Shown piece after piece: positions 2,878 to 39,529 of a stretch of 64,000 nt of DNA. The DNA comes from an archaeon. Its GTDB lineage: Archaea > Thermoproteota > Nitrososphaeria > Nitrososphaerales > Gagatemarchaeaceae. Under the pieces are notes generated by a model. It searched no databases and was not told the origin of the DNA. It saw nothing but the letters and a program-made list of their open reading frames with translations. Positions within the stretch are counted from its first letter, which is position 1; each line of letters opens with the position of its first letter. Position numbers and translations under genes: made by a program. The stretch spans positions 682,001-746,000 of the forward strand of contig JAKASL010000001.1 in assembly GCA_021819035.1 (NCBI GenBank). The letters run 5' to 3'.

Positions 2878-3858
2878 TTGATAATCACAAGGTCGCCGTT
2901 CAGGATATCCCTCGGAGGCGGTGGGACAGACCTCCCGAGCTACTACTCGAGGAGGGGTGGCTTCTTCGTCAGCGGGGCCGTGGACAAGTACGTCCACATC
3001 GCAGTCAACCCGCGCTTCGAGCAGGACAGCATCAGGGTCAGCTACTCCAAGACAGAGATAGTCGACGACGCCAGCAGGCTGGAGCACCCCCTGGTCAGGG
3101 AGGGGCTCGAGGCCGTGGGGATAAGGAAGGGGATAGAGATAGTGTCGGTGGCCGACGCCCCGGCAGCCACCGGCCTCGGCTCTTCGGGGAGCTTCTGCGT
3201 CGGGCTGCTGAGGGCCCTCCACGCGTACCTCCAGGAGGAGAGGTCGTCGCAGTTCATAGCCGAAGAGGCGGTCAACATAGCCATGACCCGGCTCAAGGAG
3301 CCGTCGGGGAAGCAGGACGAGTACGTCGCCTCCTTCGGGGGGATAAGGACCTACGAGGTCGACAGGGACGGGGAGGTCAAGGTCCAGCCCCTCAAGCTCT
3401 CCACGCACAGCCTGGCCGAGCTGGAGGCAAACATCATGATGTACTACACAGGGATCACGCGGAGCTCCGCTTCGGTCCTTTCGAAGCAGAAGACGGCGAT
3501 CGAAGGGTCGAGCGGGCTGGAGAAGATGGACAGGATCAAGGAGATAGGCCTCAAGGTGAGGGACGCCCTGGCCGCCGCGGACCTCACGAGGTTCGGCGAG
3601 CTGCTGGACGAGCACTGGAAGGTCAAGCGGGGGGTGGTGAGCGCCATGTCCAACGACAGGATAGACCACTGGTACGACGTGGCGAAGGGGAACGGGGCCC
3701 TCGGGGTGAAGCTCTGCGGCGCCGGCGGCGGGGGCTTCCTGATGGTCTACTGCGAGAACGGAAGGTCCAAGCTCCGTGACGCCATGGCGAAGGAGGGCCT
3801 CGTGGAGCACAGGTTCCACTTCGAGCCCGAGGGGTGCAAGATAATCCACAATGCGTGA
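2878..3858 (+). CDS. hddA: D-glycero-D-manno-heptose 7-phosphate kinase (HddA-like GHMP kinase)
   Basis: GHMP-superfamily kinase of 326 residues, normal for HddA. It opens with RSPFRISLGGGGTDLPSYY, the HddA-type N-terminal motif. The ATP-binding loop is GLGSSGS (about residues 100-106) and the C-terminal GHMP motif is CGAGGGGF (about 279). It is expected to phosphorylate heptose 7-phosphate at C1 in the cytoplasm. The TTG start is chosen because the conserved motif begins immediately after it. The stop overlaps an ATG of the next frame (ATGCGTGA). An AT-rich stretch near 2665-2675 could be the promoter. A fucose/galactose-type GHMP kinase is possible, but the GmhA, GmhB and nucleotidyltransferase neighbours favour heptose. 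Confidence 0.85.
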   Translation: MIITRSPFRISLGGGGTDLPSYYSRRGGFFVSGAVDKYVHIAVNPRFEQDSIRVSYSKTEIVDDASRLEHPLVREGLEAVGIRKGIEIVSVADAPAATGLGSSGSFCVGLLRALHAYLQEERSSQFIAEEAVNIAMTRLKEPSGKQDEYVASFGGIRTYEVDRDGEVKVQPLKLSTHSLAELEANIMMYYTGITRSSASVLSKQKTAIEGSSGLEKMDRIKEIGLKVRDALAAADLTRFGELLDEHWKVKRGVVSAMSNDRIDHWYDVAKGNGALGVKLCGAGGGGFLMVYCENGRSKLRDAMAKEGLVEHRFHFEPEGCKIIHNA

Positions 3859-35021: not shown

Positions 35022-35125
35022 TAACCCTGGATGAGGACCATTCGGGGATGAGCGAAGCCCTGCGGTCGAAGGGGGTGACCGTGTCGTTCCTGGGGGAGCT
35101 CCTGCGACCGGGCGCCCCCTCGTGA
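34911..35125 (+). pseudogene. C-terminal remnant of a PIN-domain toxin
   Basis: In the frame different from the ABC operon protein, DRDLLVALSAKRGSDLITLD and then EDHSGMSEALRSKGVTVSFL resemble the end of a VapC (strand, the last Asp in the LITLDED turn, helix). No N-terminal half is present. The open frame continues from upstream only by chance. Confidence 0.5.
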
Positions 35126-35197
35126 CAGGCGGGGCTGGGTTCACAGGTAGCCACGTCGTCGGCAGGCTCCTGGAGGAGGGGTACGAGGTGGCCGCGG
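35122..35197 (+). pseudogene. Fragment of an epimerase 5' end (copy a)
   Basis: VTGGAGFTGSHVVGRLLEEG, then YEV, is the Rossmann start of a sugar epimerase and closely matches the beginning of the gene at 37604 at the DNA level. Only about 25 codons remain; then similarity stops. Confidence 0.75.
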
Positions 35198-36852: not shown

Positions 36853-36926
36853 GTCACCTGCGGGGCTGGCTTCATCGGGAGCCAAGTGGTCGACAGGCTG
36901 CTCGAGGAGGGGCACAAAGCCGCCCC
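36853..36926 (+). pseudogene. Fragment of an epimerase 5' end (copy b)
   Basis: VTCGAGFIGSQVVDRLLEEG, then HKAA, is a second partial copy of the start of the epimerase gene at 37604, differing by few bases over ~70. The frame stops soon after at 36955. Confidence 0.78.
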
Positions 36927-37603: not shown

Positions 37604-39529
37604 ATGGCACAGAAGGCATTGGTGACGGGCGGGGCTGGCTTCATCGGGAGCCACGTGGTAGACAGGCTGCTCGAGGAGGGGTACGAGGTGACCGCGGTGG
37701 ACAACCTCAGCGAGGGGCACCTGGAGAACATCGCCCACCTGAAGGACGACAAACGGTTCAGGTTCGTGAAGCTCGACCTCAAGGACAGGGGCGCCACCAT
37801 GAAGGCTGTGAAGGGGAACGACGTCGTGTTCCACATGGCCGCCCAGGCCAACATACGGAAGAGCATAGTCGACCATATGGGGGACCTCGAGAACAACCTA
37901 ATGGCGATGATTAACATCCTCGACGGGATGGTGGAGCACAAGGTCGGCGAGCTTGTTTTCGCTTCGAGTTCTGCTATTTACGGGGAGGCAAAGGTCACCC
38001 CGACCCCTGAGGACTACCTTTCCCACCAGACATCCTTGTACGGTGCGTCAAAATTGGCTTGCGTGACGGGTCGGGCGAAGGTTCTCACCGGGGGAGGGTC
38101 CAAGGAGATACGCGAGGTAAGGGTCGGAGATATGGTGTACACCCACAAGAACAACCTGAAGAGGGTGAAGCAGACTTTTCGGAGGCTCTACGACGGGGAA
38201 CTCATCAACATCCGATTCGGCTCCGGGGACGGACGCAAACACATTCACATGCCAGAGAGTGCCTTCCCCGAACTTCCCACCAACTGCGAAGTTTCGGCCA
38301 CGCCAGAGCACCCGGTCTTGACGGAAAGTGGGTGGAAGTCGGTCGGGGGGCTGACTGTCGGCGAGAAGGTGGCCGTCGTGGCGAATAGTTGCATCTCATG
38401 TAAGAAACTCATACCCTATTGGACAATCTCTTGCTCGCAAGCCTGCACTTATGCGGCCTTCCCCGACATCAAGGTCAAGATAGGGAACAAGACTAGGGGT
38501 CACCCCAACTACAACGAGCACCTGTTCAAGGACCCAACGTGGCGGGCGGATTGGTTGAGGAAGACTCTTGGGCACAAGGAGATCAACTCACAGGAGTTCT
38601 ACATCTGGCTGCTCATAAAAGAGGCCGGTGGTGACAGTTTCAGCTATGTTGGCAACGGTCAGAGAGTGATAGGGGGGTATTGTCCCGACTTCGTGTCTGA
38701 ACCTTTCAAAGCGATCATCGAGTACCAAGGCAGAAGCGGGAGCAGTGACGTCAAACGTGACAACCAAAAGAGAATCAGCGCATTCCGTGACGCGGGGTAC
38801 AACGTCCTCGTCTTGAATGACGAGACCGACTTCAGGCGTCCGATTGAGACGGTTCGAAAGATTGCAGCGTTCATCACCGAGAGCGTTGCCATGGCGGTGC
38901 GGACCGACCCCGAGTTCATCTTCGCGCAGGTTCAAAGAGTGAGAGTGAGCAGACGCGCACATTCGCGCAGGCCGATTTGGGTCTACAACTTGGAGGTTGA
39001 GGATGACAACTCGTACATCTGCCAGGGCATCGCGATGCACAACTGCGAGGCGTGGGCCGAGAGTTTCGTGCAGTTCGCCCCCATCAAGGTCTGGTCGTTC
39101 CGGTTCGCCAACGTCGTCGGGGAGAGGTGCAGGCGCGGGGTCATCTGGGACTTCGTCCACAAGCTGCAGAAGGACCCGAAGGAGCTGGAGATACTGGGGA
39201 ACGGGAAGCAGAGCAAGGAGTACCTCTACGTGAAGGACTGCGTCGAGGGGATGATGACAGGGTGGAGGAAGTCCAAGGGGCCTGTCGAGGCGTTCAACCT
39301 CGGGCAGCCGAGGCAGACGCTGGTGGACGATGTGGCGGATTTGGTGATCGCAGAGATGAAGCTCGACGGGGTGAAGAGGAGGTACACGGGCGGAGAGCGC
39401 GGGTGGATTGGGGACAACAAGCTCGTCGAGCTGTCGCTTAAGAGGATGGTGAAGCTGGGGTGGAAGCCTAAGGTTTCACCTGAAGAGGCGATCAAGGCGA
39501 CGGCGCGTTGGACGCTGTCGAACAGCTAG
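37604..39529 (+). CDS. NAD-dependent sugar epimerase/dehydratase precursor containing an intein
   Basis: 641 residues encode a ~313-residue extended SDR enzyme interrupted by a 328-residue intein. N-extein (1-152): GGAGFIGSHVVDRLLEEGYE NAD-binding loop, FASSSAIYGE with the catalytic Ser, and SLYGASKLA with the catalytic Tyr and Lys. C-extein (from Cys 481): CEAWAESFVQ, then FRFANVVGERCRRGVIWDFV and a substrate-binding half ending in LGWKPKVSPEEAI. Spliced, it rejoins YGASKLA-CEAWAES, the normal helix after YxxxK. Probably a UDP- or GDP-sugar 4-epimerase or dehydratase. Two short copies of its 5' end lie upstream. Confidence 0.88.
   Translation: MAQKALVTGGAGFIGSHVVDRLLEEGYEVTAVDNLSEGHLENIAHLKDDKRFRFVKLDLKDRGATMKAVKGNDVVFHMAAQANIRKSIVDHMGDLENNLMAMINILDGMVEHKVGELVFASSSAIYGEAKVTPTPEDYLSHQTSLYGASKLACVTGRAKVLTGGGSKEIREVRVGDMVYTHKNNLKRVKQTFRRLYDGELINIRFGSGDGRKHIHMPESAFPELPTNCEVSATPEHPVLTESGWKSVGGLTVGEKVAVVANSCISCKKLIPYWTISCSQACTYAAFPDIKVKIGNKTRGHPNYNEHLFKDPTWRADWLRKTLGHKEINSQEFYIWLLIKEAGGDSFSYVGNGQRVIGGYCPDFVSEPFKAIIEYQGRSGSSDVKRDNQKRISAFRDAGYNVLVLNDETDFRRPIETVRKIAAFITESVAMAVRTDPEFIFAQVQRVRVSRRAHSRRPIWVYNLEVEDDNSYICQGIAMHNCEAWAESFVQFAPIKVWSFRFANVVGERCRRGVIWDFVHKLQKDPKELEILGNGKQSKEYLYVKDCVEGMMTGWRKSKGPVEAFNLGQPRQTLVDDVADLVIAEMKLDGVKRRYTGGERGWIGDNKLVELSLKRMVKLGWKPKVSPEEAIKATARWTLSNS
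38060..39043 (+). mobile_element. Intein with Vsr-like homing endonuclease domain
   Basis: 328 residues. It begins with Cys 1 (CVTGRAKVLTGG, block A). Block B is EVSATPEHPVLTESGWKSV with the TxxH signature. It ends in block F VYNLEVEDDNSYICQG and block G IAMHN, with +1 Cys in the extein. Between them are a CxxC ... CxxxC zinc knuckle (SCISCKK, SCSQAC) and SYVGNGQRVIGGYCPDFV, AIIEYQG and DAGYNVLVLN. That is the core of a Vsr-like PD-(D/E)XK/EDxHD endonuclease rather than the common LAGLIDADG type. All splicing residues are present, so it should self-splice. Confidence 0.88.

Follow-up and report, generated by a model that had tools for sequence, protein, structure and literature searches.

The epimerase gene examined here, which lies in a 64,000-nucleotide stretch of archaeal DNA (the window), very probably carries a class 1 intein that splices and homes by means of a DUF559/EDxHD-like endonuclease, and we consider this the best explanation of the sequence. 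In the mechanism we propose, the intein (Cys1, His-Asn, Cys+1) would excise from the epimerase precursor and the two enzyme halves would be rejoined beside the YxxxK motif to yield a 313-residue enzyme, as the motifs and the homologues suggest. The endonuclease appears to sit between the splicing halves, with a Cys4 knuckle ahead of it, and probably recognises and cuts the empty site in the epimerase gene, after which repair from an intein-bearing copy would spread the intein along with some flanking sequence.

Host gene and intein borders

The original prediction put an intein at 38060-39043, naming its blocks (A, B, F and G), Cys1, TxxH, HN and a +1 Cys; the coordinates proved exact, and each of the motifs is present (Table 1). 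Class 1 full-length inteins carry blocks A, B, F and G, with a nucleophile at position 1, TxxH, HN and a Cys, Ser or Thr at +1. The motif set (Cys1, TxxH, HN, Cys+1) is complete in the window intein, block names being assigned as we understand them; Cys1 is encoded at 38060-38062 and the final Asn at 39041-39043, and the 328 codons between and including these are free of stops. The insertion falls two residues past the Lys of YGASK (YGASK-L-A↓C, with the arrow marking the insertion point), just as had been proposed, and the joined N- and C-exteins make a protein of 313 residues, in agreement with the length of about 313 forecast for the spliced product.

Table 1. Features of the intein-bearing epimerase gene; positions are those of the window, residue numbers those of the intein
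Feature	Position	Strand	Evidence
Precursor ORF, 641 aa: extended SDR (NAD-dependent epimerase/dehydratase) with intein	37604..39529	+	PF01370, PF16363
N-extein, 152 aa, C-terminal end YGASKLA	37604..38059	+	translation; continuous with C-extein in intein-free homologues
Intein, 328 aa	38060..39043	+	blocks, profiles, PDB matches, splicing-domain scores, empty-site homologues
Block A, CVTGRAKVLT, includes Cys1	38060..38089	+	sequence; Cys1 invariant in 3 alleles
Block B TxxH, T81-P-E-H84	38300..38311	+	sequence; invariant in 3 alleles
Cys4 knuckle-like segment, C111-x2-C114-x10-C125-x3-C129	38390..38446	+	sequence; invariant in 3 alleles; metal binding putative
DUF559 endonuclease domain, residues 174-268	38579..38863	+	PF04480; top Foldseek match 3r3p, E 0.17
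Putative active-site residues D210, E221, Q223	38687..38728	+	alignment with ten other DUF559 inteins; role inferred
Block F, VYNLEVEDDNSYICQG	38981..39028	+	sequence; TIGR01443 spans residues 307-328
Block G, H327-N328 and Cys+1	39038..39046	+	sequence
C-extein, 161 aa, starts CEAWAESF	39044..39529	+	translation

Among the intein profiles, TIGR01443 (intein_Cterm) scored 18.7 bits, above its cut-off of 15.6, and both PF14890 (Intein_splicing; 30.2 bits, E 4.5e-7) and TIGR01445 (16.6 bits) fell below their cut-offs of 35.8 and 24.5, respectively; when the whole genome was scanned, PF14890 scored the window intein over its C-terminal part only, at 14.2 bits. Eight of the nine PDB matches at E <= 1 were inteins, the best being PI-MtuI (3ifj; 2e-5, phmmer). 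Comparison of the splicing parts with 18 inteins (200 shuffles) gave the highest z scores, 19.6 for the N-terminal and 12.5 for the C-terminal part, with the LAGLIDADG intein of a Fer4 protein in the window genome (L077), and the lowest, 1.2 and 0.5, with a CDC48 intein. L077 is the closest splicing domain of the 18, and it differs from the window intein in that its endonuclease matches LAGLIDADG_3. We conclude from these sequence marks that the window insert is a real intein.

The host had been taken for a sugar-nucleotide epimerase, which is borne out at the level of class, as an SDR, by matches of the precursor ORF to PF01370 (E 1.2e-43) and PF16363 (E 4.5e-39) in a Pfam profile search. None of the best 25 of its 104 NCBIfam matches lay above cut-off, the leading one, galE, reaching 124 bits against a cut-off of 262, and "sugar epimerase" therefore holds as a class and not as a statement of substrate.

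The endonuclease domain

PF04480 (DUF559) matched the intein at 28.5-31 bits, against a gathering cut-off of 20.6, and it matched all three alleles; we take the domain to be PD-(D/E)xK-like. The six Pfam profiles that matched the intein at E <= 1 included neither a LAGLIDADG nor an HNH model. The forecast of a Vsr/EDxHD-type nuclease was accurate in part. The DUF559 match speaks for it, together with a non-significant top fold match to the I-Bth0305I structure (3r3p, E 0.17), and two results weaken it: no Vsr model occurred among the six Pfam and six NCBIfam matches at E <= 1 (libraries that presumably hold one), and ExDGxxH has lost its Asp and its His. In the alignment, with the signature residues placed provisionally from the EDxHD family name, D210 and E221 are kept, Q223 occupies the Asp position of ExDGxxH and there is no His; the motif is intact in all ten of the other archaeal DUF559 inteins aligned. 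Because of these replacements, the window nuclease could be altered or dead. The PDB chain of I-Bth0305I, which may not be the wild-type sequence, reads IEVNG at the same motif, so that the Asp of ExDGxxH may not be universal.

AlphaFold models built on the three-row alignment were poor. The whole-intein model (pLDDT 40.2) was discarded, and the nuclease core model (pLDDT 53.4), compared with 350,542 PDB chains, gave 407 Foldseek matches at E <= 10 and none at 0.001. The best was 3r3p (E 0.17, prob 0.72), and as a sign of an I-Bth0305I-like fold in the modelled core it is suggestive and no more. When the nuclease alignment was searched against PDB sequences, four matches came up at E <= 10, the best at 0.46 and none of them meaningful.

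Divergence among intein alleles

Three alleles are available in all, those of the window genome (G000, 1.67 Mb in three contigs), G004 and G019. Synonymous divergence was estimated by the Nei-Gojobori method, with one intein segment saturated, and Fisher tests were run on rounded counts. The bearer contig of G019 is 90-92% identical to the window over the exteins and 76% identical over the intein. Between these two alleles dS is 1.47 in the intein against 0.37 in each extein (intein residues 1-292 versus exteins, Fisher p 2.7e-15); between G004 and G019 it is 1.10 in the intein against 0.255 in the C-extein (p 1.5e-12), with 0.635 over the final 180 nt of the N-extein. G000 and G004 lack this contrast between intein and exteins (dS 0.176 in the intein, 0.218 and 0.224 in the exteins). 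GC3 also differs, at 0.735 in the intein versus 0.829 and 0.901 in the exteins.

The divergent block and the intein do not share their borders. The last 36 intein codons have a dS of 0.339 in G000-G019 and 0.046 in G004-G019, as low as the exteins (p 2.5e-4 and 4.7e-8, respectively), and are the most diverged part of the intein in G000-G004 (dS 0.406). Third-position divergence between G000 and G019 climbs some 60 nt ahead of the intein, then falls back inside it near residue 292. With a boundary that was set after the data had been viewed, this excess in the N-terminal flank amounts to 13/57 versus 23/372 differing sites in G000-G019 (p 2.3e-4) and recurs in G004-G019 at p 0.017 with the same post hoc boundary; it is missing against the empty G004 copy (9/57 versus 46/372, p 0.52). 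Conversion tracts would be the simplest reading of these borders, and the synonymous divergence indicates that the intein and its host gene have different histories.

A CDC48 query, meant to calibrate genome-wide divergence, had no match in G019. Contig L042 of G019 holds two stretches of about 81% identity to other stretches of the window, with 80-83% identity for its empty epimerase copy; the 90-92% identical exteins of the G019 bearer may therefore be the part that was shared recently. Whichever part that was, the G019 intein and exteins, judged by their divergence, differ in history.

The alternative that survives best, which we nevertheless hold to be unlikely, is that the intein splices but its endonuclease can no longer cut, and that vertical inheritance, with chance recombination, has kept it in the epimerase gene. 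The remodelled ExDGxxH motif would agree with this, as would the low count of alleles found, three from a single genus, and the even divergence of G000 and G004. A dead nuclease is harder to reconcile with the constraint on the domain: over intein residues 151-292 omega is 0.17, 0.107 and 0.146 in the three allele pairs, between the N- and C-extein values, which places the nuclease region under purifying selection. The difference in synonymous depth between intein and exteins in both G019 pairs also argues against it, and the I-Bth0305I chain weakens the case from the motif.

Misbinned or mixed-strain metagenome contigs could imitate mosaic divergence with no homing at all, which we consider improbable. 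The G019 bearer allele lies on a contig (C176) of only 3,287 bases with a coverage of about 2, so that its cell of origin is uncertain and may have been a co-binned strain, and the G004 genome is listed with 5% contamination. Misbinning alters which genome owns an allele, yet the similar exteins and the dissimilar intein would still share one contig, and the contrast within that contig stands, as a comparison of sequences, whatever its cell of origin. The allele data fit the preferred reading of a mobile, homing intein.

Distribution and empty insertion sites

An intein at the same site was found in three of the 31 genomes of the genus (G000, G004 and G019), and the same three were the only bearers of the full intein among 400 genomes of the order. 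Ten further genomes of the genus matched over at most 59 residues and were taken to hold other inteins. Searched with the nuclease alignment, an even draw of 398 genomes of the phylum yielded the window genome alone, G004 and G019 not showing there.

With the precursor as query, 60 of 101 relatives matched at 1e-20, and we examined 27 homologue loci (L009-L035) from the 57 matching genomes other than the bearers. The intein-free alleles that the original prediction had proposed to look for were plentiful: all 25 of the loci that are readable at the insertion site are uninterrupted, and two bearer genomes hold an empty copy besides, G004 on contig C27 (KLA↓SEAWAES, +1 Ser) and G019 on contig C142 (KLA↓AEAWSNA, +1 Ala). 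A G008 copy, 93% identical, reaches the edge of its contig before the insertion site. The insert is thus an in-frame insertion missing from homologues, a mark of inteins. That the 328 residues are instead a permanent domain insertion of the mature enzyme is very unlikely: no stop breaks the frame in three genomes, which speaks for it, but canonical intein blocks stand at both edges, the site lies two residues past the YxxxK Lys, and the insert is precisely missing from every readable homologue and from both empty copies.

Among the ten readable homologues of highest identity (54-62%), seven have Gly, two Ser and one Ala at +1; nine of the remaining 15 have Cys there. All three intein-bearing alleles have Cys+1, and this residue, set against the Ser and Ala of the empty copies in bearer genomes, fits co-conversion of the flank.

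A viral origin of the intein was rejected, as no real relative was found among viral_contigs, phages and plasmids. The whole intein matched one locus in viral_contigs, over 22 residues at the C-terminal end of the intein, in a large ORF that is different elsewhere; with the nuclease alignment as query, viral_contigs yielded 33 pattern matches and no relative. The nuclease region had no match in phages, nor the whole intein in plasmids. Against PHROGs the whole intein had four matches, all in its first 120 residues, and one of the three nuclease rows (not that of the window) matched phrog_93, "endonuclease", at E 0.011.

Other DUF559 inteins

PF04480 was matched 54 times among 398 genomes of the phylum, in 49 of them, and also in one of 14 control genomes. 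We read 16 of the 53 other ORFs, including all with frames longer than 224 aa, the other 37 being shorter; of the 16, ten are inteins and six are not. Nine of the ten share one radical-SAM gene and one site (L090, L098, L100, L113, L114, L115, L119, L120 and L121) across nine genomes and five families, including the window's own genus (G005). Their host was named by likeness to L075, which matches PF04055, and L119 has only the C-terminal part in frame. The tenth, L111, interrupts a helicase that by eye is UvrD-like.

The radical-SAM inteins share with the window intein one order of parts (splicing halves, Cys-rich segment, linker, DUF559 domain), and by splicing-domain score the eight that have both their ends take places 2 to 9 among the 18 inteins compared. 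The best PDB match of their DUF559 profile (six rows) is also 3r3p, weak at E 0.024. They differ in host, in site (GCNW(L/A)↓C, and GCSWA↓C in G005), in a Cys/His pattern other than the window's and in their intact ExDGxxH, and the two sets of nucleases show no direct link (1% probability in hhalign and less than 1 bit in hmmsearch).

The window intein had been presented as unusual. Its nuclease indeed matches neither LAGLIDADG nor HNH profiles, but the ten inteins above show that it has company, and its sugar-nucleotide SDR host is not alone either. One of five further long-frame SDR loci, L130 (contig C25 of G041), is also a sugar-nucleotide SDR of this family and likewise holds an intein, one of LAGLIDADG look at QGDG↓C...HN↓SHTRDFTYV in a GDG...RDFTYV motif (by eye). 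The window intein is less singular than first proposed, and the wider DUF559 intein set of the phylum is more interesting than the window intein itself.

It is quite possible, though we do not go so far as to favour it, that DUF559/EDxHD domains are established in this phylum as a class of intein-fused endonucleases, captured repeatedly (radical-SAM, UvrD-like helicase, epimerase), and that the epimerase lineage, with a remodelled D..ExQ site and its own Cys4 DNA-reading knuckle, is still homing. The DUF559 inteins of this one phylum, the window's and ten others, suggest a class that has been neglected. The matched intein-bearing and empty copies, with a natural target site, make homing by a DUF559 nuclease directly testable; a DUF559 nuclease compact enough for a 328-aa intein could serve as a site-specific tool; and the alleles point to intein exchange among uncultured relatives.

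The window genome holds 12 other apparent inteins (L069-L080, by eye from PF14890 matches, the weakest at E 0.0033), and the window intein is its sole DUF559 match. Their hosts, some of them named by eye, are GlmS, Top6A, CDC48, an actin-like protein, eIF2 gamma, radical SAM, DNA polymerase B, a Fer4 protein, RadA, a helicase, NAD synthetase and a MoxR-like ATPase. Seven of the nine of these ORFs that were scanned match LAGLIDADG_3. The radical-SAM copy (L075) has its LAGLIDADG intein a few residues downstream of the DUF559-intein site.

Relation to known systems

The first EDxHD nucleases to be noticed lay beside split inteins in metagenomes, and the link between this type of nuclease and inteins is therefore not new in itself. 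The gmd product, which we take to be an SDR, is a nucleotide-sugar enzyme like the window's host. The gmd gene of Thermosynechococcus also carries an intein, of type II and in a bacterium, according to an excerpt of PMC9403480; the same excerpt names a DUF559/EDxHD gene in one paragraph with inteins, without placing the gene inside one. The usual intein endonuclease is LAGLIDADG, as stated in excerpts of a research paper and a review (PMC5050341, PMC7765530). A fused DUF559 intein in archaea is not described in the excerpts of PMC9403480, PMC3943268, PMC5050341 and PMC7765530.

I-Bth0305I, an EDxHD enzyme listed under group I intron endonucleases in an excerpt of PMC3943268, resembles the window domain as the top fold match, not significant by itself, of its low-confidence core model and in an IE-x-(N/Q)-G stretch common to both, and we assume a similar homing role. 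The window domain differs in being fused in a contiguous intein with a Cys4 knuckle, and BLASTP of its core against a 58-residue stretch of I-Bth0305I gave no match.

Genomic neighbourhood

Ten neighbouring ORFs of the epimerase gene were scanned, two of which had no profile match. Downstream, two ORFs match glycosyltransferase family 2, one an FkbM methyltransferase and one a GFO/IDH/MocA oxidoreductase; the four matched upstream have HEPN, nucleotidyltransferase, DUF433 and DUF5615 as their profiles.

Fragments of the epimerase gene start (56-149 bp, from its first 170 bp) are repeated upstream of the gene, at 35122-35197 and 36860-36915 of the window, and at E <= 1e-5 the gene-start sequence occurs in the window genome in these two fragments and the gene, and nowhere else. 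Such fragments also lie in relatives, at 3674, 5271 and 7273 of L041 and at 2388, 3142, 5481 and 6183 of L043. They alternate with toxin-antitoxin-like pairs (HEPN/nucleotidyltransferase and DUF433/DUF5615, with PIN-like ones, by eye, in relatives). In G004 and G008 the order of the shared modules differs, and the arrangement looks as if cassettes recombine at the gene-start copies.
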